Shown here: piece by piece, positions 13,065-46,711 of the stretch | Numbering within the stretch: position 1 is the stretch's first letter | Layout of the letters: each line of letters begins with the position of its first letter | Made by a program: the position numbers and the translations under genes | The notes under the pieces: generated by a model | Databases searched by the model: none | Told to the model about the DNA's origin: nothing | What the model saw: only the letters and a program-made list of their open reading frames with translations | Source of the DNA: Agromyces sp. NDB4Y10 | Lineage (GTDB): Bacteria; Actinomycetota; Actinomycetes; Actinomycetales; Microbacteriaceae | Length of the DNA stretch: 64,000 bases | Direction: 5' to 3' | Assembly: GCF_001620055.1 (NCBI RefSeq) | Contig: NZ_LQGY01000005.1 | Span: 1 to 64,000, forward strand

Positions 13065-13568
13065 ATGAGCGACGGACACGCTCCCTCTCCCCCGGCCGGA
13101 TGGTACGCCGCGCCGCACGCCGCCGGACAGTTGCGCTACTGGGACGGCTGGCGCTGGCTCGACATCACCCCGCCGCCGCAGCCCGTGGCAGCACCGCGTG
13201 CTCCCCTCGTCGGCGTCGAGCACCGCGGCAACCAAGTCGGTCGGATCGCCCTGGTGGCTGCCATCGCCGGTACGATCTTCGCCTGCTGGCCCGGCTGGTT
13301 CCTCGCGGGATGGATCCTCCTGCCCGCCGCGTTCGTACTCGGCATCGTGGCGGTCGCGTTGCCCGGGCGACGGCGCGGCAACGCCGTCACAGCGATCGTC
13401 ATCTCGATCATCGGGACGATCGCGGGATTCTCGGTGTTCTTCTCCACGGTCTTCGATGGATTCGGGGACACGGGGCTGGAGCGGGTGCGGTCGGAGGCGC
13501 CGCTTGAGGGCGCGCCGCCTTCACGGTCGCACCATTTGGAGATCATCCCACTGTTCGTCGATTGGTGA
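13065..13568 (+). CDS. DUF2510 membrane protein at the island edge
   Basis: This 167-residue protein has an N-terminal DUF2510 motif (AGWYAAPHAAGQLRYWDGWRW, residues 11-31) and three close membrane helices between about residues 63 and 133. The last 35 residues (from DTGLERVRSEA to LFVDW) look unlike the usual acidic tails of such proteins, and base composition drops near the end. The 3' end may have been replaced when the neighbouring island arrived. The stop codon overlaps the earliest possible start of the next gene. Confidence 0.82.
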   Translation: MSDGHAPSPPAGWYAAPHAAGQLRYWDGWRWLDITPPPQPVAAPRAPLVGVEHRGNQVGRIALVAAIAGTIFACWPGWFLAGWILLPAAFVLGIVAVALPGRRRGNAVTAIVISIIGTIAGFSVFFSTVFDGFGDTGLERVRSEAPLEGAPPSRSHHLEIIPLFVDW

Positions 13569-13648
13569 CCGATTCACCGCCAGCTGATGCATCTCCGATG
13601 TCTTTGCCATACCCAATAGGCTTCACAGGTGCCACCCAGTCAGCCGCC

Positions 13649-15716: not shown

Positions 15717-17468
15717 TCAACCCATCCCGTCCGGCCATCGCTCGAGAACGAGTTCCTGGAGCCGTCGTGCCCGCGACGAAACCGCCTCGATGTCCCATCG
15801 CGCGTACTCTGCAGCCACCGACCTGGTCGAACCGAACGCCGGCTCCTCAGCGAAGCGTCGCCGCTTCTCGTCGTACGGCTCCCGGAGCGCCCGTTGCGAC
15901 GGCGATTCGCTCAGTGGCACAAGGTTCGCGAGCAGGTCCCGGGTGTTCGCGACCTCTTCATCAGTGAACTGCGTCCATGCGTCATCCGGCTTCTCGGGGA
16001 GCACGCGCTCGACGTACATCACCGGCGAAGGCAAGGCACCCTCGACGGCGTCCAACTCCTGGAACAGGTAAGGAACGATCGTCGCACCGGCCAGGTGACG
16101 TTGGAGCACCGCCGCAGAGACTTCGGCGTCGGTCGGCCAGCTGACCGTCTTGTGCTTCTTGATCTCGGCGGCCACGCGTTGCGGGGTGTACCAGTTGTCG
16201 CAGTCGAGCCACAGCCGCTTGAACACCGCGTGCAGGCCGGTCGGCTCGAAGCCGCAGATGGCTCGACGGGTGAGGAACGCGTCGATCACATCGAGGATCC
16301 CGTCGCCAGGACCGACGCCGACCGCGCCCGTGCGCATCGCGTGCGAGAGCTGCATCAGGAACGGGAGCGCGGAGGCCGGCAGGTTGGCGCGGCGCAGCCG
16401 GTCCAGGCGGAGCACCGTCGATGGTGCGTGCTCCGATCGGTTGCCACCGATGACGAGATCGAGGAAGTCGGGCTGGAAGACGGCCAGAGAGTCGATGACC
16501 TCGACCGGGCTCATCCGCCCCCATTCGCGCTTCAAGGTCGGGTAAACCTCGGACTTCCGGAGATTGGGCTCGTGGATCAGTCCGAACGGGAAGAAGTAGG
16601 CGTCGAAGTAGTCCTTCGAGTCGGTCTTGAAGGCCGAATAGAAGGGTTGCCACGCCTCCCGGTCGATCTCGATCGCCTGTTCGGGGTCTTCGAGCGCGAC
16701 GCGCAGGAAGACATCGTTCCGCACAAGGTCTCCGATCGTCATCGGCTCCTGCCGGGAATTCAGGCTGTCGAAGATCTTGGGCCCGTTGGTCGGGTCGTTG
16801 ACGTCGATCACGACGACGCTCAGCTGCTGCAGGAGTGCCGTGTAGATCTCGCGGATGCGGTCGGAACCGCCTTCGGCGGACTGGAGACGGTAGAACCGCT
16901 TGGCACGCTTGTAGTTGGTCTCGACGCGGCCGTGCTTCCGCTCATCCGACGGCAGCAGGTTGATGTGCGTGCCGACGAGCGCGGGCTCGAGCTGGCGCAT
17001 CGTCGTGAGCTCGCGGATCACGACGTTCAGGTCGCCCTGGTCTTCACCGCTCGGCTGCAGTCGCAGATTGGAGCGCCGCCCTGTCGGCACATTGGTCACG
17101 ATGTACCGGCGGAAGAGCTGCGCGGCCTCCTCCGCTTCACCGGCGAGCGCCAGTGCGTGGATCGCCGCGCAGAGGTAGAGGTACACCGTCGTGAGCCGCT
17201 GCTGGCCGTCGATGATCTCGTCGACGGCGAGTTCGGCAGGGCCGCTCGGCAGCTGATGCATGATGATCGCCCCGACGAAGTGCACGTCGTCTTCGCCTTC
17301 GACGAGGCGAAGGATGTCGAGCTCGAGCTGGTAGCACCGCGCGGTCTGCCATTTGTACGGTCGCTGGAAGAACGGGATCGAGAGCACGGACCCGCCTCCG
17401 AGGATCGCCTCGAAGTTCGTTTCGTCGGTGCTGCTGGTCAGCTTGAGTTGGCGGAGGACGAGAGGCAC
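15717..17468 (-). CDS. GmrSD-like DUF262 protein with altered C-terminal nuclease motif
   Basis: This 583-residue protein resembles type IV GmrSD-type enzymes. The DUF262 domain carries FFQRPYKW (about 33) and the hallmark DEIIDGQQRLTTVYLYL (about 82-98), implicated in nucleotide-driven cleavage control in this family. The C-terminal part aligns by eye with the DUF1524 HNH region, including a counterpart of the NLxxLS segment (LLANLVPLSESPSQ). In the motif normally reading (E)HxxPQ, the sequence is ERVLPEKP (about 484), with CGC coding Arg where His is expected, so nuclease activity may be lost. GTG 17468 follows GGAAAC. It is the last gene of the six-gene minus-strand operon, 36 bases after the BRCT gene. 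Confidence 0.87.
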   Translation of the reverse strand: MPLVLRQLKLTSSTDETNFEAILGGGSVLSIPFFQRPYKWQTARCYQLELDILRLVEGEDDVHFVGAIIMHQLPSGPAELAVDEIIDGQQRLTTVYLYLCAAIHALALAGEAEEAAQLFRRYIVTNVPTGRRSNLRLQPSGEDQGDLNVVIRELTTMRQLEPALVGTHINLLPSDERKHGRVETNYKRAKRFYRLQSAEGGSDRIREIYTALLQQLSVVVIDVNDPTNGPKIFDSLNSRQEPMTIGDLVRNDVFLRVALEDPEQAIEIDREAWQPFYSAFKTDSKDYFDAYFFPFGLIHEPNLRKSEVYPTLKREWGRMSPVEVIDSLAVFQPDFLDLVIGGNRSEHAPSTVLRLDRLRRANLPASALPFLMQLSHAMRTGAVGVGPGDGILDVIDAFLTRRAICGFEPTGLHAVFKRLWLDCDNWYTPQRVAAEIKKHKTVSWPTDAEVSAAVLQRHLAGATIVPYLFQELDAVEGALPSPVMYVERVLPEKPDDAWTQFTDEEVANTRDLLANLVPLSESPSQRALREPYDEKRRRFAEEPAFGSTRSVAAEYARWDIEAVSSRARRLQELVLERWPDGMG

Positions 17469-17504
17469 GGTGTTTCCGTTCGTTCGGGGTCGATCAGGGT
17501 TGGT

Positions 17505-18362
17505 TCATGAGCGGAGGTCGAGAGCTAACCCCCACCCGACGAAATCGGGGCCCCAAGTCAGGCCGATACCCACCGATTCCGCCGCGGCCATCCAGCGATC
17601 CGGTTCCCGAGGACGTCGCTCGAGGACGAGAACCGCTCTGACGGACTGGCCAGGGATGGCAGGTCGGGAGCGCAACTGCTCGGCGTAGTCGACAACCTGC
17701 CCGATCCCGAGTCGGATCTGCTGGTCTTCGACTGCACTTCCCAGGCTCTTGACCTCAGCGACGTAGACGGTGAGCCCGTCCGCCCAGCCGACATCGAACT
17801 TGGGCGCATTGCGACCGTGGCGTTGAGGAACGAGCCCTCGGCTCGCCAGCCTTCGTGCGAACGCCAGGAGCGTTGCTTCATGGGCAGCGGTGGCGCGGTC
17901 GAGCGCTTCGAGGTCGACAGTGAGGCTCGATGGCTGGTGAGCCGTTGGAGCTCGTTCGGCCAGGGGCCCGCCAAGTATCCCTTCACCGAGAGAAGGCAGG
18001 ACGAGTACTTCGTCTACGCCGGCCACCCGAAGTTCACGGTTTCGCGCAGGGTATCCATCGAGCAGGTCTGCGAAGCCCTGACCATCGATGATCGCCAATT
18101 CGTGCCCAGAGCGACGGAGCGTGTCGGCGAGTTTGAGCTTCTTGCTGTACTGCCGGGTTTTGTCGGTCACGTTCTGGTTGGCAAGATCTCCGTGAACGAG
18201 CAAGCTGACCTTCCTGGACATGTCCGTCTTCCAGTCGGCCGCTCCGCGCGCCATGGCCATCCGGACACAATCCTCGCGGATCTCCCAGTTGCCGTCGACG
18301 AACACCCGACCGGTGAACGCGAGGACGTGCCCGTGGAAGCTCTCGATCCATTGAGGTTTCAT
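17505..18362 (-). CDS. BRCT domain fused to a PD-(D/E)XK-like nuclease domain
   Basis: This protein has 285 residues. Residues about 8-100 form a BRCT-like domain of the DNA-ligase type (HGHVLAFTGRV start, DMSRKVSLLVHGDL in the middle, a KKLKLAD helix, IIDGQGFADLLDG end). Residues about 180-240 contain FDVGWADG, then VYVAEVKSLG, then GIGQVVDYAEQL, which gives the D-(x)n-E-x-K pattern and following helix of restriction-like nucleases. BRCT domains bind DNA ends or partners; I infer a nuclease recruited to breaks, gaps or helicase products. It lies between the UvrD-like helicase gene (44 bases upstream) and the DUF262 gene (36 bases downstream), all on one strand. Confidence 0.8.
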   Translation of the reverse strand: MKPQWIESFHGHVLAFTGRVFVDGNWEIREDCVRMAMARGAADWKTDMSRKVSLLVHGDLANQNVTDKTRQYSKKLKLADTLRRSGHELAIIDGQGFADLLDGYPARNRELRVAGVDEVLVLPSLGEGILGGPLAERAPTAHQPSSLTVDLEALDRATAAHEATLLAFARRLASRGLVPQRHGRNAPKFDVGWADGLTVYVAEVKSLGSAVEDQQIRLGIGQVVDYAEQLRSRPAIPGQSVRAVLVLERRPREPDRWMAAAESVGIGLTWGPDFVGWGLALDLRS

Positions 18363-18406
18363 CGCGCGACCACCCGCCTAATCTCGTTTCGACCTGCCAG
18401 TTGGAC

Positions 18407-20641
18407 TCAAGACACCTTGAGCAGTGACGAAGGTCGTCCCTTCCAGAGCACCACGAGCTCATCGCGCGCCCGGCTCGACGCCACGTACAGCAGCGACCGT
18501 TCCCGCAGCTCCACGTCCGCGCGGTCCTCAGGCGCGACGCCCTTGAATGCCCACGTCGACGGGAACGACCCGTCGGACATGTCGAAGAGCACCACTCGTG
18601 AGAACTCCATGCCCTTCGAGGTGTGCATGGTGAGCACGACCGGGTCGGTTCCGGTCTGCTTCGCCGAGGTCAGGATGGTGCTGGCGATGCCGTGGTGTTC
18701 GAGGGCGTCGTGCACGTCCTTCGAGGCGTTGTTGGACGAGGTCAGCACGGCGATGGTCTCGCCGCGGACGCCGGCATCGAGCCAGCCCCGCACGGTGTCG
18801 GCGAGCGCCGTGTACTGCTCCCCCGCCGATGTGGACGCGATGCGTCGCGGATCCGGACCGAGTCGGCTGGAGCGATACCCCGCCACGCCCTCTTCGGCGC
18901 CTTCGGCGTCGATGTACTCCGCGCCTTCGAGCAGCCCGAGCGCGTACCGCAGGTTCTGCTCGGTCGTGCGGTAGTTGAGGGTGAGCCGACGCGACCGTCC
19001 GACGATCGCGATCCCGAGCCGCGAGAGCACGACGCGGCGTCCATAGATGCGCTGGTGGATGTCATCGGCGATGAACATGTCGTCGTCGCCCTCGGCGGTG
19101 AAGGCGCGCAAGAACTGCCAGTGCGCCGCGGTGAGGTCCTGCGCTTCGTCGATGAGGATGTGGTCGGCGAGTGTGCGCGGCCTTCCGCCGTCGAGGCCGC
19201 CGAGCCACCCGGCCGCGACCGCAGCGAGCTCGGCGTAGGTGACGGTCGAGTTGATGCGGGCGTTCCGGCGGAAGTGCTCGACGACCTTCCACACCTCGGC
19301 GCGCTTCGCGCGGTCGAGGGCGATGCCCCGCCCGGGCCGTCGGGCGGTGAAGTAGTCGTCCTTCGTCGTGATGCGACCGGGCAGAATCACCTCGAGGTAC
19401 TCACCCGCGAGGAACGACTTCGAGCGGAGCGGTCCGTCGAGGTTCGCCCCCGAGTCGTCGAGTGCCGCTTCCCATCCGCTGTCGTTCGCCACCGGTCGAG
19501 CGGCCGAATCGACGGACGAGCCGATCACGTTCACGGCCGCGTCGCCGAACCCGGTGCCGGCGAGCTCCCGAACGGATGCCACGAGCGCGTCCACCCCCCG
19601 GATGAGGATGCCCGGGTCGCCAGGCCGGTCCGCGATCGCGGCGGTGGCGTCCAGGCGTTCGAGGTCCCGGCGGAGGTTGTCGGCGAGCGCCCGCGTGTAG
19701 GTCGTGAGCACGACGCGCGACCCGGCGTCCGTCCACGCGAGGTTGCGCGCGCGGTGGATGAGCACGACGGTCTTGCCGGTGCCCGCTCCTCCGGTGAGCC
19801 GGAACGGCCCGTGGTACTTCGCGGTCGCGTACCGGCGCTGGTCGGGGTGGAGGAAGACGCGCCAAGCGCCGAAGTCGCCGCCCTCGATGACCCGCTGCAG
19901 CTCCTCGTCGGAGTCGACGAACGTGAACTGCATCTGCGCGGCTGGGTGCTTGAGCGCGTCGACGAGGCGTGCGTCCTCGTGCCGTTCGTCGATCTCGGCG
20001 GGTGCGACGGGCTCGACCGCCTCGCCGATGCCGAGCGAGTCCTTGATCTGCGAGATCGCCGACCCGACGGCCATCTCGAGCAGCACCGAAGCCTGCCACT
20101 CGTTCTCGAGCGACGCGGCGAAGGTGAGTAGTGCGTCTTCGTCGGGCGCGGCGAACGCTCGCTCGGCGAGGTCGGGTGCGAAGCCGAACTCGTCGACGAG
20201 GTCGCTGCGGAAGTACGAGCGCTCGGTCAGGAAGGAGCGCGACGGCGCGGCGTCCGCTTCGGTCGCAGACGGGGACGCCTGCCCGGTCGCCGCCTCGTCG
20301 GCCGGCGTCGTCGCCTCGATGAATTCCGGGATTCCGTTGACCGGGTTGATCTGCAGCTTACGGGTGCGTGCCCGTTCGATCGCCTCGTCGTGCTCCCAGG
20401 TGCCCGCGTAGACGTAGGTGCGCTCCTGGCCGATGGGGTCCAGCTGGTAGAGCACTGCGCGCAGGTGGATGTCGACCCGCCCGGTTCGCGCCCGCTCGTC
20501 GACCGGGTGGTTCATCCGCTCGATGTTCAGGCCGGGGATGCCGTCGTCCTCCGTGAGCTTGCGGAGGAACGACATGATCTTCAGGTCGACGGCCTTCTCG
20601 TGCTTCTGACCCTTCATCTTGGTCATGATCAGGTTGGGCAT
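18407..20641 (-). CDS. UvrD/PcrA-like superfamily 1 helicase
   Basis: This 744-residue protein has an N-terminal region of about 250 residues unlike classic UvrD (KMKGQKHEKAVDLKIMSFL near the start). It is followed by SF1 helicase motifs: Walker A TGGAGTGKTVVL (about 284), DEAQDLTAAHW (about 499), the TLNYRTT motif (about 560), MHTSKGMEFSRV (about 670) and VASSRARDEL (about 720). It unwinds DNA with ATP. I chose ATG 20641, which follows GAGAGGA by 5 bases; the frame remains open far upstream but there it overlaps the next gene antisense to nothing coding. It is 32 bases downstream of the giant DUF1998 helicase gene in the operon. Confidence 0.92.
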   Translation of the reverse strand: MPNLIMTKMKGQKHEKAVDLKIMSFLRKLTEDDGIPGLNIERMNHPVDERARTGRVDIHLRAVLYQLDPIGQERTYVYAGTWEHDEAIERARTRKLQINPVNGIPEFIEATTPADEAATGQASPSATEADAAPSRSFLTERSYFRSDLVDEFGFAPDLAERAFAAPDEDALLTFAASLENEWQASVLLEMAVGSAISQIKDSLGIGEAVEPVAPAEIDERHEDARLVDALKHPAAQMQFTFVDSDEELQRVIEGGDFGAWRVFLHPDQRRYATAKYHGPFRLTGGAGTGKTVVLIHRARNLAWTDAGSRVVLTTYTRALADNLRRDLERLDATAAIADRPGDPGILIRGVDALVASVRELAGTGFGDAAVNVIGSSVDSAARPVANDSGWEAALDDSGANLDGPLRSKSFLAGEYLEVILPGRITTKDDYFTARRPGRGIALDRAKRAEVWKVVEHFRRNARINSTVTYAELAAVAAGWLGGLDGGRPRTLADHILIDEAQDLTAAHWQFLRAFTAEGDDDMFIADDIHQRIYGRRVVLSRLGIAIVGRSRRLTLNYRTTEQNLRYALGLLEGAEYIDAEGAEEGVAGYRSSRLGPDPRRIASTSAGEQYTALADTVRGWLDAGVRGETIAVLTSSNNASKDVHDALEHHGIASTILTSAKQTGTDPVVLTMHTSKGMEFSRVVLFDMSDGSFPSTWAFKGVAPEDRADVELRERSLLYVASSRARDELVVLWKGRPSSLLKVS

Positions 20642-20673
20642 CGGCGTCCTCTCGGGTGGGTTCGGGTGCGGCG

Positions 20674-23600
20674 TCAGTTCACGCCAAGGGCGGCGGCCAC
20701 GGATGTCGCGTCGGGGTCGACGACGGTCCAGCCGTCGTCTTCGAGTTCGGCACGGTCGCCGCCTGCGGGGTGCAGCAGCACGACGATCTTGGGTTCGATC
20801 CAGGCGAACGACACGGGAATGCCGTCGCCGAGTTCGAGGCCCATCTCTGGGACGGGCATGCCCTCGATCGCGTGCAACGCGTGCAGGAGCACCTGTTCCT
20901 CGGGGGTCGCGAGGTCGACGAGGCCCTGCCAATCGACGGTGAGGTCTGCGGGGAGGGTCACGTCGACCGGTCCAGGCGCGGCGGCGCCCGCGGTCGGCAG
21001 GATGTCGCTGAGGGCGGCGATCGCGACCGACGAGCCGTCGAGGCGCGCGCCGAGCAGGTTCGACAGTCGGAGCCAGAACTTCCAGTCGTCGGCGAACAGG
21101 GTGCCCGCGAGCGCGGGCATCCGGTCGTCCAGCACGACGGATGCCTCGGTCTTGCCCTGCCCGATGTGCCGGGCGGTGAGCACGGCCCGATCGTGGCGCA
21201 GCTGCCAGGTCGTCGGGTCGGTGCCGGGCGGCAGCCCGTCGACGAGGGCTGCGGCGGCGAGTTCCTCGACCGTGCGACCGGCGGCATCCACGAGCACGCT
21301 CGTCGGCAGGCGCACGAGCATGGGCAGCGCCTCGGCGACGGCCTCCCAGCGTTTGGCGGCCTTCCCCGGGTCCTGCATCCAGCCCATGAGCCACGTCATG
21401 GGATTCGCCGTGACGTGGTCGAGCGACGCGAGCGAGAGTCCGTACTGTCCGGAGAACGCCGTCGCCTTGGCCGCGTCGAACCACGGCGTCGCCGGTTCGA
21501 CCTTCTCGTCGCGGGCGCGCACGAGGTCGTCCCACGTGAATGCGAGCACGAGATACCCCTGGTCGCGGAGGATCGCGCGCTTCTGCGCGTCGTCGGCGAT
21601 GCGGTTGTGGGCGACCGAGGCGTGGAACGCCCGACCGTCGGTGTAGATCGCGATGGGCTTGGCGCCGCCGCCGAACTGTTCGAGCACGAAGTCGGGCTGC
21701 GTGTGGCCGAGCATGAGCTGCGGCTGCAGCATCCAGATGCGGCGGCTGCCCGGGAAGGTGACCTGCACCTTGTTGCCGTGGTCGCCGGGGATCTCCTTCA
21801 CGCCCGCGCCGAGCTTCTTCGCCCGGGCCATGAAGACCTCGCGGAACAGCGATTCGATCACCGGTTCGCCGACGGGCACGCCCGGGTCTTCACGCGTGAC
21901 GTCCCAGCCGGTCGGCTCGCCATCGGCGACGCCCAGCAGCACCGCGAGGCTGTGCTCGGCGCTCGCCCGCGAGACGCGGTCGATGCTCCTGCCCGGCGCA
22001 TAGGGAAGCAGGCACCGGTGGCACGATGCCCGGCCTTCGCCGCGGCACGGGCAGTCACGCACGGTCGTCCACGCGATCTCGAGGAGTTCGCGGATGCGGT
22101 CGACGTTCGCGAGCTCGGCGAGGTAGCCGGTGCCGCCGGGCACCGCGTCGTGCACGAGGAGCGCGGGCACGTTCTCGGTACCGTCGGAGAGCATGGGCTG
22201 CACCGTCTCGACGATGCGGAGGTGGTCCGGGTCGCCGCCGATCACCTCGCGGAGGCCGCGGAGGATCGCCGCAGCGAGGCTCGGCACCGCGAGGGTGTCG
22301 CCGAGCGTGATGCGCGGCGGCAGCCGGAGCAGGATGCCCTGGGTCGTCAGCGTTCGGCTGAGGGCGATCGGGATCGCCTGCTCGTCTCGGGCGTCGCGGT
22401 TGGGGCACCACGGCTTGTGCTCGCGGCGCGAGTTGGCGTTCGCCTCGGCGTCGAGCTTGCCGCAGACCGCGCAGACGCGGAACAGCGGCGCGGTGCGCTC
22501 CTCGCCCGCGATGAGCCGGTTCTCGCCGGCCGGACCGACCTTGCCGAGGTTGAGCCAGCGCACCGTGAGGTCGCGGACGTAGGTGACGCCGAACCCGTCG
22601 CCCTCGACGTACCAGGCGTCGGTGATGCCGGCCGGGTCGACGTCGGGTGCGACCTGCATGACGAACCGTTCGCGCTGTCGCTCGTCGCGACGGTCGCCGA
22701 TGGATGCCTCGTCGCGCCGCACCTCGGCCGAGACCTGTTCGAGTTCGACGACGCGGAGCTGCTGGGCGGTGTCGGCGATGCCGTTCGCCCCGCAGCGGGG
22801 GCAGGAGGCGTGCGACTGATCGACCGTGCCGACGTCGTAGCCGAACCCGCACGCAGGGCAGAACGACCACGTGCGCACGGCTTCGCCGCCGCTTCCGAGG
22901 TCGACGGAATCGACGGCGATCTCGATGCCCTGCGCGTAGAACACCGCACCGGGCGCAAGCTCGCTGATGGCGATGCCCGCTCCGCGCTGATACGTGATCG
23001 CCTTGTCGCGATACTCGAGGCTGTCCGGGTCGATCCAGCTGAGCGCGACGTCGAGGCGCACCGAATCGTCGATGAGCGAGTAGTTCGGCAGCAGCCCGAA
23101 CCGTTCGAGCGCCGCGACCCAGTGCTCCGAGCGCAGTTCGGCGAGCTGCTTGGTCGCCATCGCGTACGAGGCCCGCGCGGTGCGGTACTCACGCCGCTCG
23201 TCGTCGCCGGCGGTCGGATGCTCGGCGGCCTTACGGAGGTCGTCGAGCGCGTCGGCGACCGCGTTCTTGCGGAAGCGCACCTCGTCGACCTGGGCGCTCC
23301 AGCGCTGCACCGCCTCCCGTGCGGCCGCGGCAAAGGCGCTCGATCCGGGCTCCTCGCCAGGGCTCGCCCACCGGCGGAGGGCCTCGCGCGCCGCCTCGCT
23401 CACGGTGTCCGCGTCGAAGGCGCCGAGGAACGCGCCGAGCCGCTCGGCCGCGTGGGCCTCGGCGTCCGCCACGAGGTCCCCGAGGAACGTGCCGGGTTCC
23501 GTCGATGCGAGGACGTCGCGGGCGTTCCGCGGTGCGTCCGTCAGGTCGGCCGCGCGGCGATCGACGAGGGACGCGACGTACTGTCGCCGCAGGATCTCCT

Positions 23601-34597: not shown

Positions 34598-34907
34598 CGT
34601 GGAGGTCCTCTCGATCCGCGGTGCCACAACGCGGTCGGCCCCGCCGCCTTCATGCTAGCCATGGCCTCGTGCCTATCGGGCGCCGACCGGGCCCTGTCCC
34701 CCGAGTTGGGGGGCATCCGACCACGGTGAGCGCTTGCCGCCGCGCCTCTCCGAGCTGAGAGGATGCCAGGACGGGCATCCCGAGGGCGGATGTCGGTGCG
34801 TATCTGTAACGTCACTCGGCTGACCGGGCAGAGCTCGCACGGTCGGCCTTCACGCGCAACCCAGCGCGGCAGGAAGCCCCGCGAGCCCTACATCGGAAGG
34901 CAACACA
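34598..34907. promoter_or_regulatory. Divergent control region between the two defence operons
   Basis: These 310 bases must hold the promoters of both the SNF2-led operon (leftward) and the ATPase-helicase/drmAB operon (rightward). I could not place convincing -35/-10 pairs. Two dyads are visible: CCCCC-gagtt-GGGGG at about 34699-34713, and the perfect 7-base inverted repeat GGATGCC-N6-GGCATCC at 34761-34780. Either could bind a shared regulator or be a chance use of the genome word. GGAAGG precedes the ATG at 34908. Confidence 0.6.
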
Positions 34908-39593: not shown

Positions 39594-42500
39594 GCGCCAC
39601 GGATGTCCGGAACGATTTCGTCGACGAGTTGCGGCGGATGTGGCTCGGTCCCTTGGGCGGACCGAACGAGGTCCTCTCGCGCAACCCTGTCTACGCCTAC
39701 CTCGTCGGAACGCTGTATCCCGTCGAAGAAGGTGCGGTCGCCGCGGCACCGACCGTGCTGGACGAGGACATCGAGGCCGGGGTGCTGCACGGCGAGACCG
39801 CCGAGGTCGTCGATGACGAGCTCGACATCGGCGGAGAACGGCTGGACGAGGACGACGATCCCGGGCTGAGCCTCGTCGGCGCATTCGGCTGGGCTCCGCA
39901 GTCGATGGGGATGTCGTTCATCCATGATGGCGACGCGATCATCGTGTCGGTCGACGCCGGCGCATATCGCGAGGACGAGTCGGCCGAAGCCTCGGATGAC
40001 GAGCCCACGGATGGCCCGCGCGAAGCATGGCGGCGGGAAGACGTGTCGCACGCTGGGATCCGCATTCCGACGACCGCCCACGGGAGACAGACGATCCTGC
40101 AGGGCCGCGCGCATCTGGCGTGGCGCACCCGGACCATCGGTGAGAAGCGCCTCACCACGATCGCCGTCTCGAACGCCGAAACGGCGGCCGCGGGCAAGGC
40201 CAAGTCGGATCCGACGAAGTGCTTGTTCCAGGTCCGCATCCGCGCCGACATCGAATCGGGACGCCTGCACCCGTACCCGACGAGCAACCCGGTGACCTCC
40301 TCCGACGAGGATCGCGAGCTCGAGCTGCGGTACCGGTCCAAGCCGACGTACGCGATCGGCCACGGCACCGCCGTCGTCTGGGACGACGGCGAAGCCCCTG
40401 GCTATGCGATGACCGAGACCGTCCCTCGGCAAGAGGTTCCCGCGGTCCGGGCCCGGGTGAGCACGCTCCAAGCTCTGGAACTGGCGTGGCTCGCCGACGA
40501 GAGCGTCAGCGCCGAAGATCTCGGCACCGGCCTCCGTGCGTTCCTCGACGGGTACCGCTCATGGGTGTCGGATCGCGAGCAGGAAGCGGCATCCCTTCCG
40601 GCACGATTCGAGAAGCCCGCCGCCGCCATCCTCGAACGGATGTCGACCGCGCGAGACCGCATCGAAGACGGGATCCGTCTGCTCGAATCCGGCGGTTCGG
40701 TGCTGACGGCGTTCCGACTCGCGAACCGCGCGATGCGCACCCAAATGTTGCAGCAGCGATGGGCGCGCAGCCACGCCGGCCAGGTCGGAGTTCCTCTCGA
40801 GCCGGCCCCTGCGCCCTCGACGAAGCGGGAGGAGCCACGGTGGCATCCGTTCCAGCTCGGCTTCATCCTGCTCTCGCTCGCCTCGACCACGGACGCCGAG
40901 CACGATGACCGAGGGCTCGTCGACCTGATCTGGTTCCCGACCGGTGGCGGCAAGACCGAGGCGTACCTCGGCCTCGCGGCCATCGAGATGATCAGGCGTC
41001 GCCTCGACCGCGGTGTCGCTGGCGGTGGCACAGCGGTGCTCACCCGCTACACCATGCGCCTGCTCACGGCGCAGCAGTTCCAGCGCGCCGCGACGCTGAT
41101 CTGCGCGCTCGAGCTACTGCGCGCGCAGGACGCCCGGCTGGCGGGGACTCCGCCATTCTCGATCGGACTTTGGCTCGGCAACACGACGACGCCGGGCACG
41201 TACGAGCAGGCCGCCGACCAGATGAAGCGGGTCTTGCGCGAGAAGAGTCCGCAGAATCCGTTCCAGTTCCGGCAGTGCAGCTGGTGCGGGACGTCGATCA
41301 TGCCCGCGCGGCAGACCCGCTATGAGGAGCAGTACGGAGTCCGCGCGAGCAAGTACTCCTTCGAGTTCTTCTGTCCGCACGCCGGATGCCCGTTCCACGT
41401 CAAGCTCCCCGTGCAGGTGGTGGACGAGGGCATCTTCGAAGACCCGCCGACGATGCTGGTGGCGACGGTGGACAAGTTCGCGCGTCTCGCTTGGATCGAC
41501 CAGGGCGCGTCGATGTTCGGGCTCGGCGGCGTGGCGTACGACCCGCCGTCACTGGTCATCCAGGACGAGTTGCACCTCATCGCCGGGCCGCTCGGCACGA
41601 TCGTGGGCATCTACGAGGCAGCGATCCGGGGCCTCATGTCATGGAAGGGCACGGCGCCGAAGGTCGTCGCTTCGACCGCCACGACCCGCGCCTCGGCCGA
41701 CCAGATCCGCGAACTCATGGCCTCGAAGGTCGCGGTGTTCCCGCCGAGCGGGCTCGACGCCGACGACAGCTATTTCGCCGAGCCCGACCCGGATCGTGCC
41801 GGCCGTATGTACGTCGGGATCATGCCCCAGGCACACACCCCGTCGTGGGCGCTGGGCCAGATCTCGACCGAGATGCTGAACGCCCCGGTACGCCTCGGGA
41901 TGACGGGCGCAGAGCTTGATGCGTACTGGACGCTGGTCGTTTATCACAACAGCCTCCGCGAGCTGGGGCGGACTGTGACCATCCTGCGCGACGACGTCCG
42001 AGCCGCGCTCGACCGCAGGGCCGATCGGGATGACGACGGACCGTCGAGGACGCTCGCGAAGGACGGCATCGAGGAGCTCAACGGCAACGTCTCGTCCGAC
42101 GAACTGCTCCGCATCCTCGAACAGCTCGGCGAGGGGCCGGAGAGCGGCGGCAAGCCGCTCGACGCGCTCGCGACCACCAACATCATGTCGGTCGGCATCG
42201 ACGTCAGTCGGCTCGGTCTGATGCTCGTGAACGGCCAGCCCAAGTCGACCTCGGAGTACATCCAGGCCACGAGCCGAGTCGGACGTGGCGACGTGCCGGG
42301 CCTCGTCGTCACGATGTACCGCTCAGGCAAGCCGCGCGACCGGTCGGTGTTCGAGTCGTTCACGGCGTATCACCGGGCGTACTACCGGTTCGTGGAGCCG
42401 GGGACGGTGACGCCGTGGTCGCTCCAGGCGCGTCGCAGGGCGCTTCGCGCGGCTTTGGTGATCCTCGTGCGCCACGGCGCGGGGCTCAGCGTCAATGACA

Positions 42501-42808
42501 GCGCGGACCGGTTCGAAGCGGATGCCTCGGCTGTCAAGAAGGCGCTGGATGTGCTCACCCGGCATGTGCAGGTCGCCGACCGTCGCGAGGCGGTCAAGGT
42601 CGCCGACGAACTGAAGAAGGCGGTCGACGACTGGGAGTATCGCGCGGAGGAAGCCGGGCTCAGCGGCACCCCGCTGAAGTACCGTTCCCGTACCGCCGGC
42701 GAACGCTTGCTCAAACAGTTCACCGACTCTGGAGCGGGGTGGTCGACGATGAACTCGATGCGATCGGTGGACCGCGTCGTCCGAGTGCGAGCGGATGGTG
42801 AGCGCTGA
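39590..42808 (+). CDS. drmA: DISARM helicase DrmA
   Basis: This 1072-residue protein begins at the ATG overlapping the upstream stop (39590). The helicase motifs have the DrmA form: LIWFPTGGGKTEAYLGL (about 446), RYTMRLLTAQQF, then VIQDELHLIAGPLGT (about 656) instead of DEAH, ASTATTRA, and ATSRVGRGDVPGLVV (about 893). A zinc cluster CSWCG followed 30 residues later by CPHAGC lies near 563. In characterised DISARM, DrmA forms a complex with DrmB that engages incoming DNA with a 5' overhang. The N-terminal 430 residues are acidic and less conserved. Its stop shares one base with the start of drmB. Confidence 0.93.
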   Translation: MSATDVRNDFVDELRRMWLGPLGGPNEVLSRNPVYAYLVGTLYPVEEGAVAAAPTVLDEDIEAGVLHGETAEVVDDELDIGGERLDEDDDPGLSLVGAFGWAPQSMGMSFIHDGDAIIVSVDAGAYREDESAEASDDEPTDGPREAWRREDVSHAGIRIPTTAHGRQTILQGRAHLAWRTRTIGEKRLTTIAVSNAETAAAGKAKSDPTKCLFQVRIRADIESGRLHPYPTSNPVTSSDEDRELELRYRSKPTYAIGHGTAVVWDDGEAPGYAMTETVPRQEVPAVRARVSTLQALELAWLADESVSAEDLGTGLRAFLDGYRSWVSDREQEAASLPARFEKPAAAILERMSTARDRIEDGIRLLESGGSVLTAFRLANRAMRTQMLQQRWARSHAGQVGVPLEPAPAPSTKREEPRWHPFQLGFILLSLASTTDAEHDDRGLVDLIWFPTGGGKTEAYLGLAAIEMIRRRLDRGVAGGGTAVLTRYTMRLLTAQQFQRAATLICALELLRAQDARLAGTPPFSIGLWLGNTTTPGTYEQAADQMKRVLREKSPQNPFQFRQCSWCGTSIMPARQTRYEEQYGVRASKYSFEFFCPHAGCPFHVKLPVQVVDEGIFEDPPTMLVATVDKFARLAWIDQGASMFGLGGVAYDPPSLVIQDELHLIAGPLGTIVGIYEAAIRGLMSWKGTAPKVVASTATTRASADQIRELMASKVAVFPPSGLDADDSYFAEPDPDRAGRMYVGIMPQAHTPSWALGQISTEMLNAPVRLGMTGAELDAYWTLVVYHNSLRELGRTVTILRDDVRAALDRRADRDDDGPSRTLAKDGIEELNGNVSSDELLRILEQLGEGPESGGKPLDALATTNIMSVGIDVSRLGLMLVNGQPKSTSEYIQATSRVGRGDVPGLVVTMYRSGKPRDRSVFESFTAYHRAYYRFVEPGTVTPWSLQARRRALRAALVILVRHGAGLSVNDSADRFEADASAVKKALDVLTRHVQVADRREAVKVADELKKAVDDWEYRAEEAGLSGTPLKYRSRTAGERLLKQFTDSGAGWSTMNSMRSVDRVVRVRADGER

Positions 42809-44580
42809 TGGCGCGGAACGACAAAGTGATCCGGACGATTCGGCTCAGCGAGACCGTCTCCCCGTTCGGACCTGGCGCCCTCGTCGACATCCTCGGTGAG
42901 TCGTTCATGGCGATGACCGGCGACGAGTGGCCGCCGGCCAGCGTTCGCAGTGCCGTCTCCTGCGATCGGCTGGCCACGAAGCTGCGAGTCGACGAGCTCT
43001 GGGCTGCGCCCAGCAGCGGTGAGCCCGATGCCCCCAAGACTCCCGGACTCGAATTCGCCAGATTCCCGGCCTGGCTGTTCTGTCAAGAGTGCCGTCGGAT
43101 GACGCGATGGACCCGGATGATGGAATCCGGCTCTACTCCGAAATGTCCCGATTGCGAAGGTCGGCTCGTACCGATGCGATTCGTCACGGTGTGCGCCACG
43201 AGGAGTCATGCCGACGACGTCCCTTGGCCCGATTGGGTCCACCGCGCCGGGTCGGGTACCTGCGACCGCAAGGACCGTCTGCGGTTCCACCCGTCCAAGG
43301 GTGCTCGTGAGGGCCTGAGCGCACTTCAGGTCTCCTGCGACGCCTGTAAGACCACTCGGTCGCTCGGCGATCTCCGCGGCGATGTCCTGGTCCGCGACGG
43401 ATTCACGTGTCGTGGCAAGCAGCCATGGGAACGCGAGTGGGGGAACTGTGGAAAGCCGCTCGAAGTGCTGCAGCGCGGTGCCACGAGCCTGTACTTCGGT
43501 GAGGTGGTCTCCGCGATCGACATTCCGGAAGTCGAGGGTCGTGAGGCGGAGCTCGATGAGCAGATCAGAAAGCACCCCTACTGGCAGGCCGTGCAGAGCG
43601 GCAATGCCGCGATCCTCGACATGATGGTCGACGAACTGGCCGCCGTGCTCGAGCCCCCGGCAGACACCATCCGACGACGGATACTCGCGCTGACAAGCGA
43701 CGAACCGACGCTTCAGGACACGAAGCGGTCCCTCCTGAGCGAGGAGTTCGAGGCCTTCGCCGCGGCGATCGCCGGGTCGGCGCCCGCGCAGGACTTCGTC
43801 ACCAGGGTCGAACGACGTTCTGAACGCACGCCGGCGGGGCTCGGCGACGTCGTGCTGGTCGACCGGCTGCGCGAAGTGCGCGCGACGATCGGTTTCCGCC
43901 GGTACACGCCGGAGGCCCAGCTCGTGCCCTCTGTACCGAAGCGCCCAATGGAGCGCAGGTGGTACCCGGCCGTCGAGGGATACGGCGAGGGGATCTTCAT
44001 CACGTTCGATTCCGCCGCGGTCGACGCATGGGCCGTGCAGGACGGGGTGCAGCGACGCGCCGGCCGGGTCGAGTCGAACCAGGAAGGCTCGATGCTCGGC
44101 AGCCGTCTGCACGAGACCAGCCCGCAGTTCCTGCTGCTGCACGCCTTCGCGCACGCGATCATGCGTGAGCTCGCCTTCGTGAGCGGGTATTCAGCACCGT
44201 CGCTGCGCGAGCGGATCTACTGCGAGAGCACCGGCGACTACGGTGTCTTCATCTACACCACGTCGACCGATGTGGAAGGGACGCTCGGCGGCCTCGCGCG
44301 CCAGGGCGAAGCCGACTACCTCACCGGGGTCGTGCTGCGCTCGCTCGAACAGGTCGCCTGGTGTGCGAACGATCCGGTGTGTTCGGAGTCCGACCCGCAG
44401 AGCATCGACGGTCTCAACCTCGCGGCGTGCCACGCCTGTCTCCTCGCGCCGGAGACGTCGTGCGAGAGCTTCAACCTGCTGCTCGATCGGGCGATGCTCG
44501 TAGGCGGCGATGGTTTCGATGGCTACTTCCAGAAAGCCATCGAGTCGGCCCTGGACGTGTCGATCAGCGCGATGAGCTGA
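42808..44580 (+). CDS. drmB: DISARM DUF1998 protein DrmB
   Basis: This 590-residue protein begins with the typical DrmB start (RLSETVSPFGPGALVDILGE). Zinc-binding pairs are visible (FCQECRRM, CPDC, VSCDAC). The C-terminal DUF1998 region contains LLLHAFAHAIMRELAF, IYTTSTDVEGTLGGL and CHACLLAPETSCE. DrmB is the partner of DrmA in all DISARM classes. The ATG at 42808 overlaps the drmA stop by one base. The last 17 bases overlap the 3' end of the convergent vsr gene. Confidence 0.93.
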   Translation: MARNDKVIRTIRLSETVSPFGPGALVDILGESFMAMTGDEWPPASVRSAVSCDRLATKLRVDELWAAPSSGEPDAPKTPGLEFARFPAWLFCQECRRMTRWTRMMESGSTPKCPDCEGRLVPMRFVTVCATRSHADDVPWPDWVHRAGSGTCDRKDRLRFHPSKGAREGLSALQVSCDACKTTRSLGDLRGDVLVRDGFTCRGKQPWEREWGNCGKPLEVLQRGATSLYFGEVVSAIDIPEVEGREAELDEQIRKHPYWQAVQSGNAAILDMMVDELAAVLEPPADTIRRRILALTSDEPTLQDTKRSLLSEEFEAFAAAIAGSAPAQDFVTRVERRSERTPAGLGDVVLVDRLREVRATIGFRRYTPEAQLVPSVPKRPMERRWYPAVEGYGEGIFITFDSAAVDAWAVQDGVQRRAGRVESNQEGSMLGSRLHETSPQFLLLHAFAHAIMRELAFVSGYSAPSLRERIYCESTGDYGVFIYTTSTDVEGTLGGLARQGEADYLTGVVLRSLEQVAWCANDPVCSESDPQSIDGLNLAACHACLLAPETSCESFNLLLDRAMLVGGDGFDGYFQKAIESALDVSISAMS

Positions 44581-45007
44581 TTCGTTCGTAGACTTCGCGG
44601 ATGCGCGCGCCGACCTCGACAGGATCGGCGCGCACGTCGTGTTCCCAGATGCGCAGCACAGTCCACCCGTGCGATGCGAGCACCTCATCGGTGTTGCGGT
44701 CACGCGCCTGGTTCGCCTGCACCTTGGCATCCCAGTACGTCTGATTGCGACCGGGCCGCTGGTAGTGCTCGGCACACCCGTGCCAGAAGCATCCGTCGAT
44801 GAACACTGCGAGCCTCGCCCGCGTGAACACGATGTCTGCCGACCGCCGAAGCCCCTTCACCGGCGGGGTGTTCACACGGTACCTCAGGCCCTGGGCATGC
44901 AGCAGGCGTCGCACACTCAGCTCCGGCCCGGTGTCCCGCCCGCGGTTCGCGAGCATCGATCTGCGCGTGCCCTCGGAGGTCGCCCAGGATGCGCTCTGCT
45001 CACCCAT
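44564..45007 (-). CDS. vsr: Very short patch repair endonuclease
   Basis: This 147-residue protein has the full Vsr pattern. It begins with SMLANRGRDTGPELSVRRL, then LRRSADIVFTRARLAVFIDG with the catalytic Asp, CFWHGC with the catalytic His, and ends with GWTVLRIWEHDV. Vsr nicks T:G mismatches that arise by deamination of 5-methylcytosine, so it protects DNA modified by the adjacent C5 methylase. ATG 45007 follows GGGAGGTGG; a GTG at 45022 is less likely. It runs divergently from the methylase gene with an 80-base shared control region. Confidence 0.93.
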   Translation of the reverse strand: MGEQSASWATSEGTRRSMLANRGRDTGPELSVRRLLHAQGLRYRVNTPPVKGLRRSADIVFTRARLAVFIDGCFWHGCAEHYQRPGRNQTYWDAKVQANQARDRNTDEVLASHGWTVLRIWEHDVRADPVEVGARIREVYERISSSR

Positions 45008-45087
45008 CGCCACCTCCCGCACTGCGTCCGCTCGCCCGCCGGCGGGGCGGGCGTCCAGCGTCGCACCGGCCGGCTAGACTCTGGGCG

Positions 45088-46194
45088 ATGCTCCCCACCG
45101 CCTCTGCCAATACTCGCACCGACGAGAAGGATTCCAGCGCCATCCGCGTGCTCGACCTGTTCGCCGGTGCCGGTGGCCTGACCGCCGGGTTCCACGCGGC
45201 GTCGCCACGCTTCAAGAGCGTTCGGGCGGTCGAGATGGACCTCGCGGCCGCGGCGAGTTACGCCGCCACCTTCGGCGACGACATCGTCTATGCAGGGAGC
45301 ATCCAGGACTGGCTCGTCAATGAGACCGTGCCCAGCGTGGATGTCGTCGTCGGAGGACCTCCTTGCCAGGGGTTCTCGAACCTCGGCAAGCGAGATGTCA
45401 ACGATGAGCGAAACCTCCTGTGGCGCCAGTACGCTGCGACGATCCGCCGTGCTAAGCCGAAGTACTTCGTCGTCGAGAACGTCGCGGCGTTCGCGAAGTC
45501 GTCCCAATTCACCGACTTTCAGCAGGCGACCGCGCCCGGCGGGCTGCTTGAGGAGTACGACTTCCGGCACGCCGTGCTGAACGCCGCTGACTACGGGGCG
45601 TTCCAGGCGCGCAAGCGTGCGGTGGTCATCGGCTTCCGCCGCGACCTGCCGTTCCCGGGATTTCCGGCACCCACCCACCTGAAGGCCCACCGCACGGTAG
45701 AGGAGGCGTTCGACGGCATCCCATGGGTTCCAGCCGGTACTGACCTGCCCGAGCGGAAGTACGACTTCGCGGACAAGTCGTTCTTCGGGGCGTATCGAGC
45801 CTCTGAATTGCACCTCGACCGACGGTACGAGCCGATTTCGATCGATCGCTTCGCGGCGATTCCGCCCGGCGGGAATCGATTCGACCTGCCGGACCACCTG
45901 TTGGCCCCATGCTGGCGCAACCATAAGTCCGGCTCGGGCGACGTGATGGGCCGCCTGTATTGGGACAAGCCCTCGGTGACTGTCCGTACGGAGTTCTTCA
46001 AGCCGGAGAAGGGCCGATACTTGCACCCTGAGGCGAATCGTGCGATCACCCATTACGAAGCCGCCGTCCTTCAAGGATTCCCCGACGATCACAAGTTCGT
46101 CGGGTCGAAGACCGCGATCGCTCGGCAGATCGGCAACGCTGTGCCGATCCCGCTCGGCAAGGCGATCGCCGAGGTCCTCGCGACCCGTCTCTAG
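45088..46194 (+). CDS. C5-cytosine DNA methyltransferase (DrmMII-like)
   Basis: This 368-residue enzyme has the C5-methylase motifs: I DLFAGAGGLTAGF (about 23), IV VGGPPCQGFS with catalytic Cys (about 90), VI FVVENV, VIII QARKRAVVIG, IX/X ending IARQIGNAVPIPLG. Class 2 DISARM contains such an enzyme (DrmMII), which methylates host sites so they are spared. The position after drmB fits this. It could also be a stand-alone modification enzyme paired with vsr. The recognition sequence cannot be read from the protein. The frame is open upstream, but the first motif-compatible start is ATG 45088. Confidence 0.93.
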   Translation: MLPTASANTRTDEKDSSAIRVLDLFAGAGGLTAGFHAASPRFKSVRAVEMDLAAAASYAATFGDDIVYAGSIQDWLVNETVPSVDVVVGGPPCQGFSNLGKRDVNDERNLLWRQYAATIRRAKPKYFVVENVAAFAKSSQFTDFQQATAPGGLLEEYDFRHAVLNAADYGAFQARKRAVVIGFRRDLPFPGFPAPTHLKAHRTVEEAFDGIPWVPAGTDLPERKYDFADKSFFGAYRASELHLDRRYEPISIDRFAAIPPGGNRFDLPDHLLAPCWRNHKSGSGDVMGRLYWDKPSVTVRTEFFKPEKGRYLHPEANRAITHYEAAVLQGFPDDHKFVGSKTAIARQIGNAVPIPLGKAIAEVLATRL

Positions 46195-46517: not shown

Positions 46518-46711
46518 CTCTTGAGCATGCCAGACCAACGGCGTCGAGAACGCCCAGCGCCCCGGTCCTACCAGGGCGTGATTTATCCAGGTATCACGGT
46601 TCGGTGTTCTGAAATCCGGCGGCCGGCTCGATGTCTAGCGGTCATCATGTCGCAGGCATGTCCGATCAGTGCACAATACTGAGGGCATGGCTCAACTGTC
46701 CTTCACTCGAA

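Follow-up and report, generated by a model that had tools for sequence, protein, structure and literature searches.

An ARMADA type II operon paired with a DISARM-like cassette in Agromyces, and recurrence of the pair in other genomes

Two divergent defence operons

In Agromyces sp. NDB4Y10 an operon that, judged by its sequence, is an ARMADA type II system lies head to head with a gene row that is apparently an undescribed relative of DISARM. Some other bacteria have both as well, grouped in several arrangements, and this recurrence suggests a joint function; probably the locus combines two complementary DNA-restriction modules against phage whose association has been favoured by selection. 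The initial annotation of the 64,000-nucleotide stretch analysed here (the window) had left a choice between one enlarged system and two systems held together; the recurrence of the pair in several orders elsewhere bears out the latter.

The two large divergent operons described there were recovered by ORF inspection of the window, at positions 15717-34627 (minus strand) and 34908-46194, all frames being open. They do share one control region (34628-34907), located between the start codons of the armA-like gene (34627, minus strand) and the GHKL-helicase gene (34908, plus strand), but its size is 280 bp and not 310 bp. Adjacent genes overlap by 1-4 bases at four junctions (ArmA/ArmB, ArmB/ArmC, GHKL-helicase/DrmA and DrmA/DrmB), and the three other junctions of the leftward row are gaps of about 32-44 bp. 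Helicase motors are found in five of the proteins (ArmA, ArmC, ArmD, the GHKL-helicase and DrmA), in line with the four or five helicases counted initially. Genes for an OLD-type ATPase and a DUF262 protein occur at the flanks of the same island. No clear empty site was found among relatives from the genus.

The leftward operon

ARMADA type II was named in 2025 in a preprint by Bell et al. (PMC12458937). The leftward row follows its gene order, ArmA (RapA/BrxHII-like), ArmB (PglX-like), ArmC (YprA-like) and ArmD (GajB-like), with 32-36% identity to the E. coli ARMADA II proteins. The first gene (31679-34627, minus strand) encodes an SNF2/RapA-type, BrxHII/DrmD-like helicase of 982 aa (36% identity to ArmA). 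The second (26982-31679, minus strand) encodes a PglX-type N6 methylase of 1565 aa (36% identity to ArmB), matched by the PADLOC models REase_MTase_IIG (E=0, 1486 bits) and DrmMI (6.6e-55) and by Pfam Eco57I. The third (20674-26985, minus strand) encodes a YprA-family helicase of 2103 aa with an MZB/DUF1998 region (32% identity to ArmC; Pfam DEAD, Helicase_C and MZB). The C-terminus of this protein may contain a segment resembling a Vsr-type nuclease, to judge solely from aligned motifs (PDFVL...IYTDGRAFH versus PDYVL...IFLDGFAFH in E. coli ArmC). The fourth gene (18407-20641, minus strand) encodes a UvrD/GajB helicase of 744 aa counted from the ATG at 20641 (32% identity to ArmD; PADLOC NERD+UvrD 3.3e-26 and GajB 6.3e-22; Pfam UvrD). 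Its putative RelE-like N-terminus, which has no Pfam match, is assigned by homology only, 666 residues being aligned to the 704-aa E. coli ArmD.

For E. coli, eight residues are described whose mutation reduces or eliminates defence (PMC12458937). All eight are conserved in the alignments with the window proteins: K160 and D259 of ArmA (at the sites of E. coli K136 and D236), G567 and N954 (in NPPW) of ArmB, K114 and D238 of ArmC, and K309 and D517 of ArmD (numbered from 20698). The E. coli ARMADA II taken as reference has, at the published numbers, the residues given in that paper.

The initial annotation had read the same row as the start of a DISARM class 1 system continued by a DruE-like helicase. 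The SNF2 helicase and the N6-type methylase are indeed present, but the class 1 label does not hold. The ArmA-like protein matches PADLOC DrmD (1.5e-91), yet scores 334 bits with NCBIfam DrmD, for which the cut-off is 610. Moreover, the class 1 combination of DrmD and DrmMI beside DrmA and DrmB was not found, and by gene order and residues the two genes belong to ARMADA. Likewise, the large MZB/DUF1998 helicase exists but is not a DruE: its score with the best DruE model is 304 bits, compared to 2183 for a true E. coli DruE, and its raw alignment score is 1628 against E. coli ArmC and 422 against E. coli DruE. With Druantia III the locus shares the YprA-family helicase with its MZB domain, and the C5 methylase is the only other part that resembles Druantia; neither DruH nor another Druantia partner occurs among the PADLOC matches listed for the operon proteins. 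A reading of the operon as DISARM class 1 plus Druantia was rejected on the basis of cut-offs, gene order and residues.

Two possible accessory genes come next in the window. The first is an orphan ORF of 285 aa (17505-18362, minus strand) without a match in PADLOC, Pfam or PDB, or at 1e-5 in 298 other genomes of the family; its structure prediction from the single sequence has a pLDDT of 34. The second (15717-17468, minus strand) encodes a DUF262/GmrSD-type protein of 583 aa (Pfam GmrSD_N 7.8e-24 and GmrSD_C 1.5e-5; PADLOC Orf5 1.7e-55 and HEC-06 7.8e-44), to which weak matches were seen in three of nine ARMADA-only loci of the family.

The DISARM-like cassette

The rightward row starts with a gene not named in the initial annotation (34908-39593, plus strand), which encodes a GHKL/sacsin-type ATPase fused to an SF2 helicase (1561 aa; NCBIfam P_loop_sacsin 72 bits, cut-off 50; Pfam ResIII and Helicase_C). 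A model of residues 1-600 (pLDDT 89.9) has Hsp90 as its best Foldseek match (E 4.8e-9), and the GHKL-type residues are invariant in all 35 homologs compared. The DISARM core follows, as had been proposed: DrmA (39590-42808, plus strand; 1072 aa; PADLOC 3.8e-198; NCBIfam DISARM_DrmAS 872 bits, below the cut-off of 950) and DrmB with its MZB/DUF1998 region (42808-44580, plus strand; 590 aa; NCBIfam DrmB_fam 409 bits, cut-off 240; PADLOC 1.4e-73). The Vsr and C5 methylase genes named initially are also present, but Vsr (44564-45022; 152 aa; NCBIfam vsr 121 bits, cut-off 97.85; Pfam Vsr 1.7e-19) is encoded on the minus strand; its gene separates DrmB from the C5 methylase and is divergent from the latter. 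The C5-cytosine methylase (45088-46194, plus strand, start chosen by inspection; NCBIfam dcm 164 bits, cut-off 100.65) matches PADLOC DruM2 (1.1e-93) and DrmMII (4.3e-50), the latter being outscored by general type II models as well.

The DISARM class 2 label is justified for DrmA, DrmB and the C5 methylase, but not for the remainder, since the cassette has no detected DrmC or DrmE, starts with the GHKL-SF2 fusion and carries Vsr. As stated initially, DrmC, PglZ and a clear DrmE appear to be lacking. None of the three occurs among the PADLOC, Pfam and NCBIfam matches listed for the operon proteins (for several proteins the best 25) or among the PADLOC matches listed for 14 flank proteins. DrmE is also missing from the best 25 of 28 PADLOC and the best 25 of 27 NCBIfam matches of the GHKL-helicase. 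No ORF of at least 120 aa in the window contains the HxKxxxxD motif of PLD nucleases such as DrmC. This single-motif test picked up an ORF beside DrmB in all three class-1-like loci (L071-L073) but nothing in L070, a different kind of locus with DrmA and DrmB; a test with two motifs was discarded, since in class-1-like loci it overlooks the DrmC that should be there. Such an ORF is found somewhere in nine of 48 cassette loci, for instance about 1.2 kb downstream of DrmB in L159, and never directly after DrmB on the DrmB strand.

Within Actinomycetota the GHKL-helicase-DrmA-DrmB cassette is conserved as an operon. Of 80 loci retrieved with only the GHKL-helicase as query, 48 contain DrmA and DrmB too, downstream and on the same strand in 46 of these. 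A C5 methylase or Vsr match lies within the fetched stretch in 36 of the 48. In 41 of them a NERD- or UvrD-type helicase gene is located between the GHKL-helicase and DrmA, a place where the window has none.

The N-terminal GHKL/Hsp90-type region is shared with TmtA of Tiamat (PADLOC 1.6e-44), whereas in the window an SF2 helicase forms the other part of the protein, whose gene precedes those of DrmA and DrmB. The MORC/paraMORC restriction-modification operons have the GHKL ATPase, SF2 helicase, cytosine methylase and Vsr in common with the locus, but the passages of PMC2292703 seen mention no DrmA, DrmB or DUF1998, and the word sacsin is absent from that text. In the literature searched (titles and the starts of abstracts, with few subscription papers) we found no description of the cassette or of an ARMADA-DISARM pairing. 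The initial annotation knew of no described system with this gene set. The leftward operon matches one named in 2025, ARMADA II (PMC12458937), and the rightward one is a candidate new DISARM class with an Hsp90-type ATPase-helicase at its head and without DrmC or DrmE.

Recurrence of the pair

A family sample hinted that the pairing might be unique: among 299 genomes, a strong DrmA match (best piece at least 227 bits) was found in 12, eight of them as part of a cassette led by the GHKL-helicase, and a full ArmC (at least 1500 bits) in ten, while both modules occurred only in the window's own genome. That idea was ruled out by the wider search, in which 15 paired loci (the window and one plasmid included) were found in five arrangements. 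The proposed side-by-side search confirmed adjacency but not a single fixed order. Of the two halves of the survey outcome that was to speak against the proposal, never being adjacent did not hold, since the pair recurs elsewhere, whereas each operon is indeed alone in most genomes. A DrmC or DrmE match in the window, which was also to count against it, did not turn up among the matches listed.

Tandem pairs are separated by some tens of bases in certain genomes and by kilobases in others. On a Tsukamurella plasmid the annotation places ArmA 35 bp after DrmB on one strand; one-strand pairs are also seen in Mycolicibacterium peregrinum and in genome G401, with gaps between match edges of about 45 and 184 bp, respectively. 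In the interleaved locus of G413 the GHKL-helicase lies about 250 bp after ArmD, and about 10.6 kb extend from DrmB to ArmA. In Smaragdicoccus some 9 kb separate ArmD and the cassette, and Cryobacterium has a rearranged copy of the locus. In Microbacterium aoyamense and a record labelled 'Planococcus' the C5 methylase and Vsr lie past armD, with ARMADA separating them from DrmAB.

ArmC is present in 12 of 48 cassette genomes, a set that was selected by the cassette alone, comprises those matching the window's own gene best and has members that are not independent; loci L095 and L113, added for their ARMADA genes, fall outside this count. It adjoins the cassette in eight of the 12 and was not seen to do so in the other four, which are drafts in which contig ends partly intervene. 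The proportion compares with 28 of 295 (p 4e-3, the species not being independent). In the class sample, own genome excluded, the GHKL-helicase occurs in six of 28 ArmC-positive genomes versus 11 of 365 others (one-sided p 5e-4), and the two genes lie within about 25 kb in four of the six and far apart in two. On a DrmA tree without rows shorter than 800 aa, the composite label requires seven changes, six of them forced by starred branches, and the non-paired L063 falls inside the head-to-head clade. On an ArmA tree, built without the E. coli row and without L116 (a copy of L195), the six head-to-head rows form one starred clade.

Explanations for the pairing

Defence genes group in islands anyway, and the pairing figures stand without a matched control system. 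Independent systems could lie side by side through drift or a general selection for stacking, with no functional link. This fits with each module being alone in most genomes, the 9-11 kb that separate some pairs, the OLD-type ATPase and DUF262 genes at the island flanks, and the similar adjacency of ARMADA II and Druantia III in E. coli. We nevertheless regard such clustering as rather unlikely, because of the pairs that lie on one strand tens of bases apart, the co-occurrence above background in both comparisons (with species that are not independent) and the six forced label changes; as a weak control, none of the 80 GHKL-helicase loci matches the window's DUF262 protein at 40 bits. At the other extreme, the GHKL-helicase, DrmA, DrmB and ArmA-D might form a single multi-motor complex checking two base marks. 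The composite rows on one strand, the methylase and Vsr genes beyond armD and the conserved control element point in that direction, but both modules occur alone in many genomes and the ARMADA II of E. coli is active when it is the only system cloned (PMC12458937); such a complex is improbable. The rearranged Cryobacterium copy might indicate a broken island without function, for which we see hardly any chance, as all window frames are open and the eight ARMADA residues intact.

We favour two complementary modules. ArmB should place an adenine mark on host DNA, while the three motors ArmA, ArmC and ArmD, one of them with the putative Vsr-type nuclease segment, would act on incoming or replicating DNA. 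The C5 methylase of the cassette would mark host cytosines, and Vsr would most likely repair the T:G mismatches caused by that mark. DrmA-DrmB may translocate after loading at DNA ends or at single-stranded gaps, with the GHKL-helicase, which is absent from DISARM, probably serving as an ATP-gated clamp or loader. If the DNA structures recognised by the modules overlap while the self marks checked and the effectors used differ between them, the two could jointly cover phages that escape one of them. Possibly they also synergise; ARMADA II and Druantia III do so in E. coli (PMC12458937). More tentatively, and with greater doubt than about the pairing itself, the cassette may be an undescribed DISARM-like class in Actinomycetota that together with ARMADA II makes a functional, co-regulated immune machine that uses adenine and cytosine marks, has five or six helicase motors and arose repeatedly in evolution.

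In E. coli the partners of ARMADA II are Druantia III and Zorya II (PMC12458937), whereas here the partner is a DISARM-like cassette, which extends the pairing, repeatedly and in several gene orders, to Actinomycetota. Since nature provides head-to-head, tandem, convergent and interleaved forms as well as each module alone, the reason for the co-travel of large restriction systems is directly testable.

The intergenic element

In the lineage of the window the head-to-head operons are separated by a region with a short conserved element, which would permit joint expression. A sigma-70 promoter scan of the control region gave no promoter-like site. The core of the element, GTAACGTCnnTCGGCTG (34806-34822, plus strand), has one exact match in the own genome and is found exactly upstream of the GHKL-helicase gene in the window and in the head-to-head loci L092, L093, L095, L105 and L113, with no further exact match in 214 sequences (3.29 Mb). 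It may be a mere marker of common descent.

An ARMADA type II operon facing a DISARM-like cassette

The window (GC content 69.7%) spans 64 kb at the start of a contig of 74.8 kb, in a genome of 3.34 Mb. It holds an island flanked by ordinary genes, encoding TM2/DUF2510 proteins on the left and a nitronate monooxygenase and a citrate transporter on the right. Two divergent gene rows were confirmed within the island, although the control region proposed to be shared by them is smaller than the 310 bp of the initial annotation: 280 bp separate the two start codons.

The left row (minus strand) encodes an SNF2 helicase (ArmA-like; 31679-34627), a PglX-type methylase (ArmB-like; 26982-31679), an MZB helicase of 2103 aa (ArmC-like; 20674-26985) and a UvrD/GajB-like helicase (ArmD-like; 18407-20641). 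This is exactly the order of ARMADA type II as described by Bell et al. (PMC12458937). The proteins were compared with those of one E. coli ARMADA II locus, whose residues at eight mutant positions are the ones named in PMC12458937; that locus comes after a DruE gene (PADLOC DruE3, 2183 bits), with an integrase at tRNA-Leu close by. Identities were 36% for ArmA, 36% for ArmB, 32% for ArmC and 32% for ArmD, and 8/8 of the mutant positions are kept. The raw alignment score of the ArmC-like protein was 1628 against E. coli ArmC, versus 422 against E. coli DruE. Gene order, residues and scores thus identify the row as ARMADA type II and not as a mixture of DISARM class 1 and a DruE-like helicase, the reading it had been given originally. 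That mixture is explained by the labels DrmD, type IIG/DrmMI, DruE and GajB that these proteins receive from PADLOC (2023), which predates the naming of ARMADA. The ArmC-like gene of an E. coli plasmid (L209) has matches, mostly chromosomal, in 518/5426 complete E. coli genomes.

The right row (plus strand) starts with a GHKL-SF2 helicase gene (34908-39593), followed by drmA (39590-42808) and drmB (42808-44580). After DrmB come a Vsr gene on the minus strand (44564-45022) and, to its right, a C5 methylase gene on the plus strand (45088-46194). The first protein consists of an N-terminal sacsin/Hsp90-type ATPase, related to TmtA of Tiamat, fused to a C-terminal SF2 helicase. A model of its residues 1-600, built from 35 sequences (pLDDT 89.9), matched Hsp90 proteins best (E 4.8e-9). 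TM-scores were only ~0.3 over the whole length, so that these matches recognise the ATPase fold and not the overall domain layout. All of the 35 homologs keep E54, N58, D61, G87, G116 and G118, which we take as the GHKL motifs.

Conservation of the cassette

A search of 84,980 species genomes with the GHKL-helicase gene alone yielded at least 588 pattern stretches, of which at least 271 were confirmed; the best 80, ranked by how closely they resemble the gene of the window, were taken. DrmA and DrmB were both found in 48 of these 80, downstream and on the same strand in 46/48. A C5 methylase match was present in 30/48, a Vsr match in 24/48 and either of them in 36/48, and in 41/48 a NERD- or UvrD-type helicase gene lies between the GHKL-helicase and DrmA. 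These genes therefore form a conserved cassette. Within the family sample (299 Microbacteriaceae genomes, our own included), 6/7 cassette loci have a C5 methylase and 3/7 a Vsr match, whereas neither was found at 1e-6 in nine ARMADA-only loci (~40 kb each, less at contig ends), which assigns both genes to the cassette. A figure legend of Bell et al. (PMC12458937) mentions many uncharacterised DISARM-like classes, and the cassette may be among them, its novelty resting on keyword searches of open papers.

Association of the two modules

Strong DrmA matches (best piece at least 227 bits) occur in 12/299 genomes of the family sample, eight of them with the GHKL-helicase, and full ArmC in 10/299. 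The two coincide only in the window's own genome, so that the family sample is evidence against a general link. ArmC was also searched (1e-60) in the genomes of 50 loci, namely the 48 cassette loci plus L095 and L113, added for their ARMADA genes, and was found in 14/50. This corresponds to 12/48 cassette genomes (from the best 80 of at least 271), against 28/295 in the class sample (p 4e-3). ArmC lies in the same neighbourhood as the cassette in 10/14, or 8/12 without the two additions (L095 counted by ArmA, on a short contig). In L099, L117, L125 and L127, which are partly at contig ends, ArmC is present and adjacency was not seen.

In the wider class sample, the GHKL-helicase was found in 18/394 genomes (the match in genome G355 covers the helicase part only) and ArmC in 29/296, although weaker ArmC matches may represent other ARMADA types. 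With our own genome excluded, the GHKL-helicase is present in 6/28 ArmC-positive genomes versus 11/365 others (one-sided p 5e-4), a comparison in which species are not independent, membership of the 28 in the 394 was inferred from handle numbers, and the 365 include some genomes never examined for ArmC. ArmC and the GHKL-helicase are at most ~25 kb apart in four of the six (G401, G413, G569, G577; G569 and G698 are apparently one genome, counted once) and far apart in two (G454, G549). Such adjacency could also reflect the clustering of defence genes in islands.

Arrangement and descent of the paired loci

Including the window, 15 paired loci in five arrangements were found. The head-to-head arrangement of the window recurs in Agromyces salentinus, Microbacterium aoyamense, a record titled Planococcus sp. 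APC 4015 (L093, JASDDH010000007.1), a Frigoribacterium MAG (ArmA and GHKL-helicase only, at contig ends) and Cryobacterium suzukii (GHKL-helicase and DrmA duplicated, partly truncated). ARMADA is enclosed by the cassette in M. aoyamense and the 'Planococcus' record, where C5 methylase and Vsr are encoded past armD. In C. suzukii (L113/L188), one side of ARMADA carries an intact GHKL-helicase and a DrmA fragment and the other a GHKL-helicase fragment and full DrmA-DrmB-C5, a duplication or rearrangement around ARMADA.

The cassette precedes ARMADA in tandem on one strand in Mycolicibacterium peregrinum (~45 bp between match edges), G401 (184 bp), G577 (613 bp) and another Mycolicibacterium MAG (985 bp). 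On a Tsukamurella plasmid, DrmAB precedes ARMADA likewise, with 35 bp from DrmB to ArmA by annotation and a 4-base overlap of DrmA and DrmB; a GHKL-helicase match was absent at 1e-3 within the 50 kb examined. This composite row (L211, 15542-42393; T. tyrosinosolvens plasmid 10, NZ_LR134452, 386 kb) has a UvrD-type gene ahead of DrmA and another after ArmD, and its ArmC is annotated as two CDS. The modules are convergent, ~1.5 kb apart, in Pseudarthrobacter C4D7 and Arthrobacter efr-133. ARMADA comes first in Smaragdicoccus niigatensis, with ~9 kb from ArmD to the GHKL-helicase and C5 methylase and Vsr matches inside, and the modules are interleaved in G413 (DrmA-DrmB, ~10.6 kb, ArmA-D, GHKL-helicase). 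In G577 (L204-L206) one ARMADA operon lies between two cassettes on opposite strands, ~30 kb apart, each comprising GHKL-helicase, UvrD, DrmA and DrmB.

On a DrmA tree (60 rows, quick method; 14 composite), the composite label required 7 changes, 6 forced by starred branches, against a shuffled mean of 12.8 (0/500 as low). Composite loci are thus clustered, yet without a single origin, and the deepest split in the tree divides them. Head-to-head rows fall within one starred set of six that includes the non-paired locus L063; the pairing may have been lost there or have arisen more than once. The ArmA tree has 23 rows, of which only eight are non-composite, all of one family, so its label count of 2 changes proves little. 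It unites six head-to-head rows in one starred clade with no others inside. Since both trees also recover a window/Agromyces/Cryobacterium group and a Microbacterium/'Planococcus' group, the pair mostly co-descends in the head-to-head clade. The grouping of L093 with M. aoyamense in DrmA and ArmA points to a possible mislabel or contamination. Three genomes in which ArmC had no match at 1e-60 have an ArmD-like gene close to the cassette (loci L115, L122, L147). L115 may have lost ARMADA, since its DrmA has a near twin in L162, a full-ARMADA locus.

A conserved element in the control region

Most of the head-to-head intergenic DNA could not be aligned; the exception is a stretch of ~36 bp whose core is GTAACGTCnnTCGGCTG. 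In the 280-bp control region the element reads GTAACGTC..TCGGCTG. Exact cores were found six times in 214 sequences (3.29 Mb), in the window, L092, L093, L095, L105 and L113, each at ~60-90 bp from the GHKL-helicase gene, on its 5' side. A single exact copy exists in the window's own genome, and a copy with 3 mismatches at the second Cryobacterium junction. The non-composite relatives L063, L065, L094 and L138 gave no exact copy. The element may serve both operons as part of an operator or promoter. Alternatively, it may belong to the cassette alone, as in L113 it precedes a GHKL-helicase gene that does not face ArmA, or it may simply reflect shared ancestry.

Possible mode of action

In E. 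coli, defence by ARMADA II requires all four genes, proceeds without growth arrest and is synergistic with Druantia III (PMC12458937). Unmethylated DNA stimulates the ATPase DrmAB, for which unmodified 5' overhangs are the proposed trigger (PMC9142583), and DruE acts on intermediates that contain ssDNA (PMC13192584). ARMADA and the cassette would meet on intermediates of this kind, using different self marks. Beside C5 methylases, Vsr generally repairs 5mC deamination, and the Vsr of the cassette would do the same. Vsr might instead be the effector in place of DrmC, but this is less likely, as neither its position nor its strand is constant among loci.

Other genes of the island

A DO-GTPase2 domain protein is encoded just downstream of the C5 methylase (46631-47902); a PADLOC match to it was not found. 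The left row, on the minus strand, further contains an orphan ORF of 285 aa (17505-18362), without a match among the 298 other family genomes. Inspection by eye suggests a BRCT-like pattern at its N-terminus and a PD-(D/E)xK-like one at its C-terminus, which no tool supported. The row also contains a DUF262/GmrSD gene (15717-17468). Convergent with the latter is an OLD-type AAA ATPase gene (13562-15469, plus strand; Pfam AAA_15/AAA_21; PADLOC HEC-04, 6e-33), a further defence candidate at the island edge.
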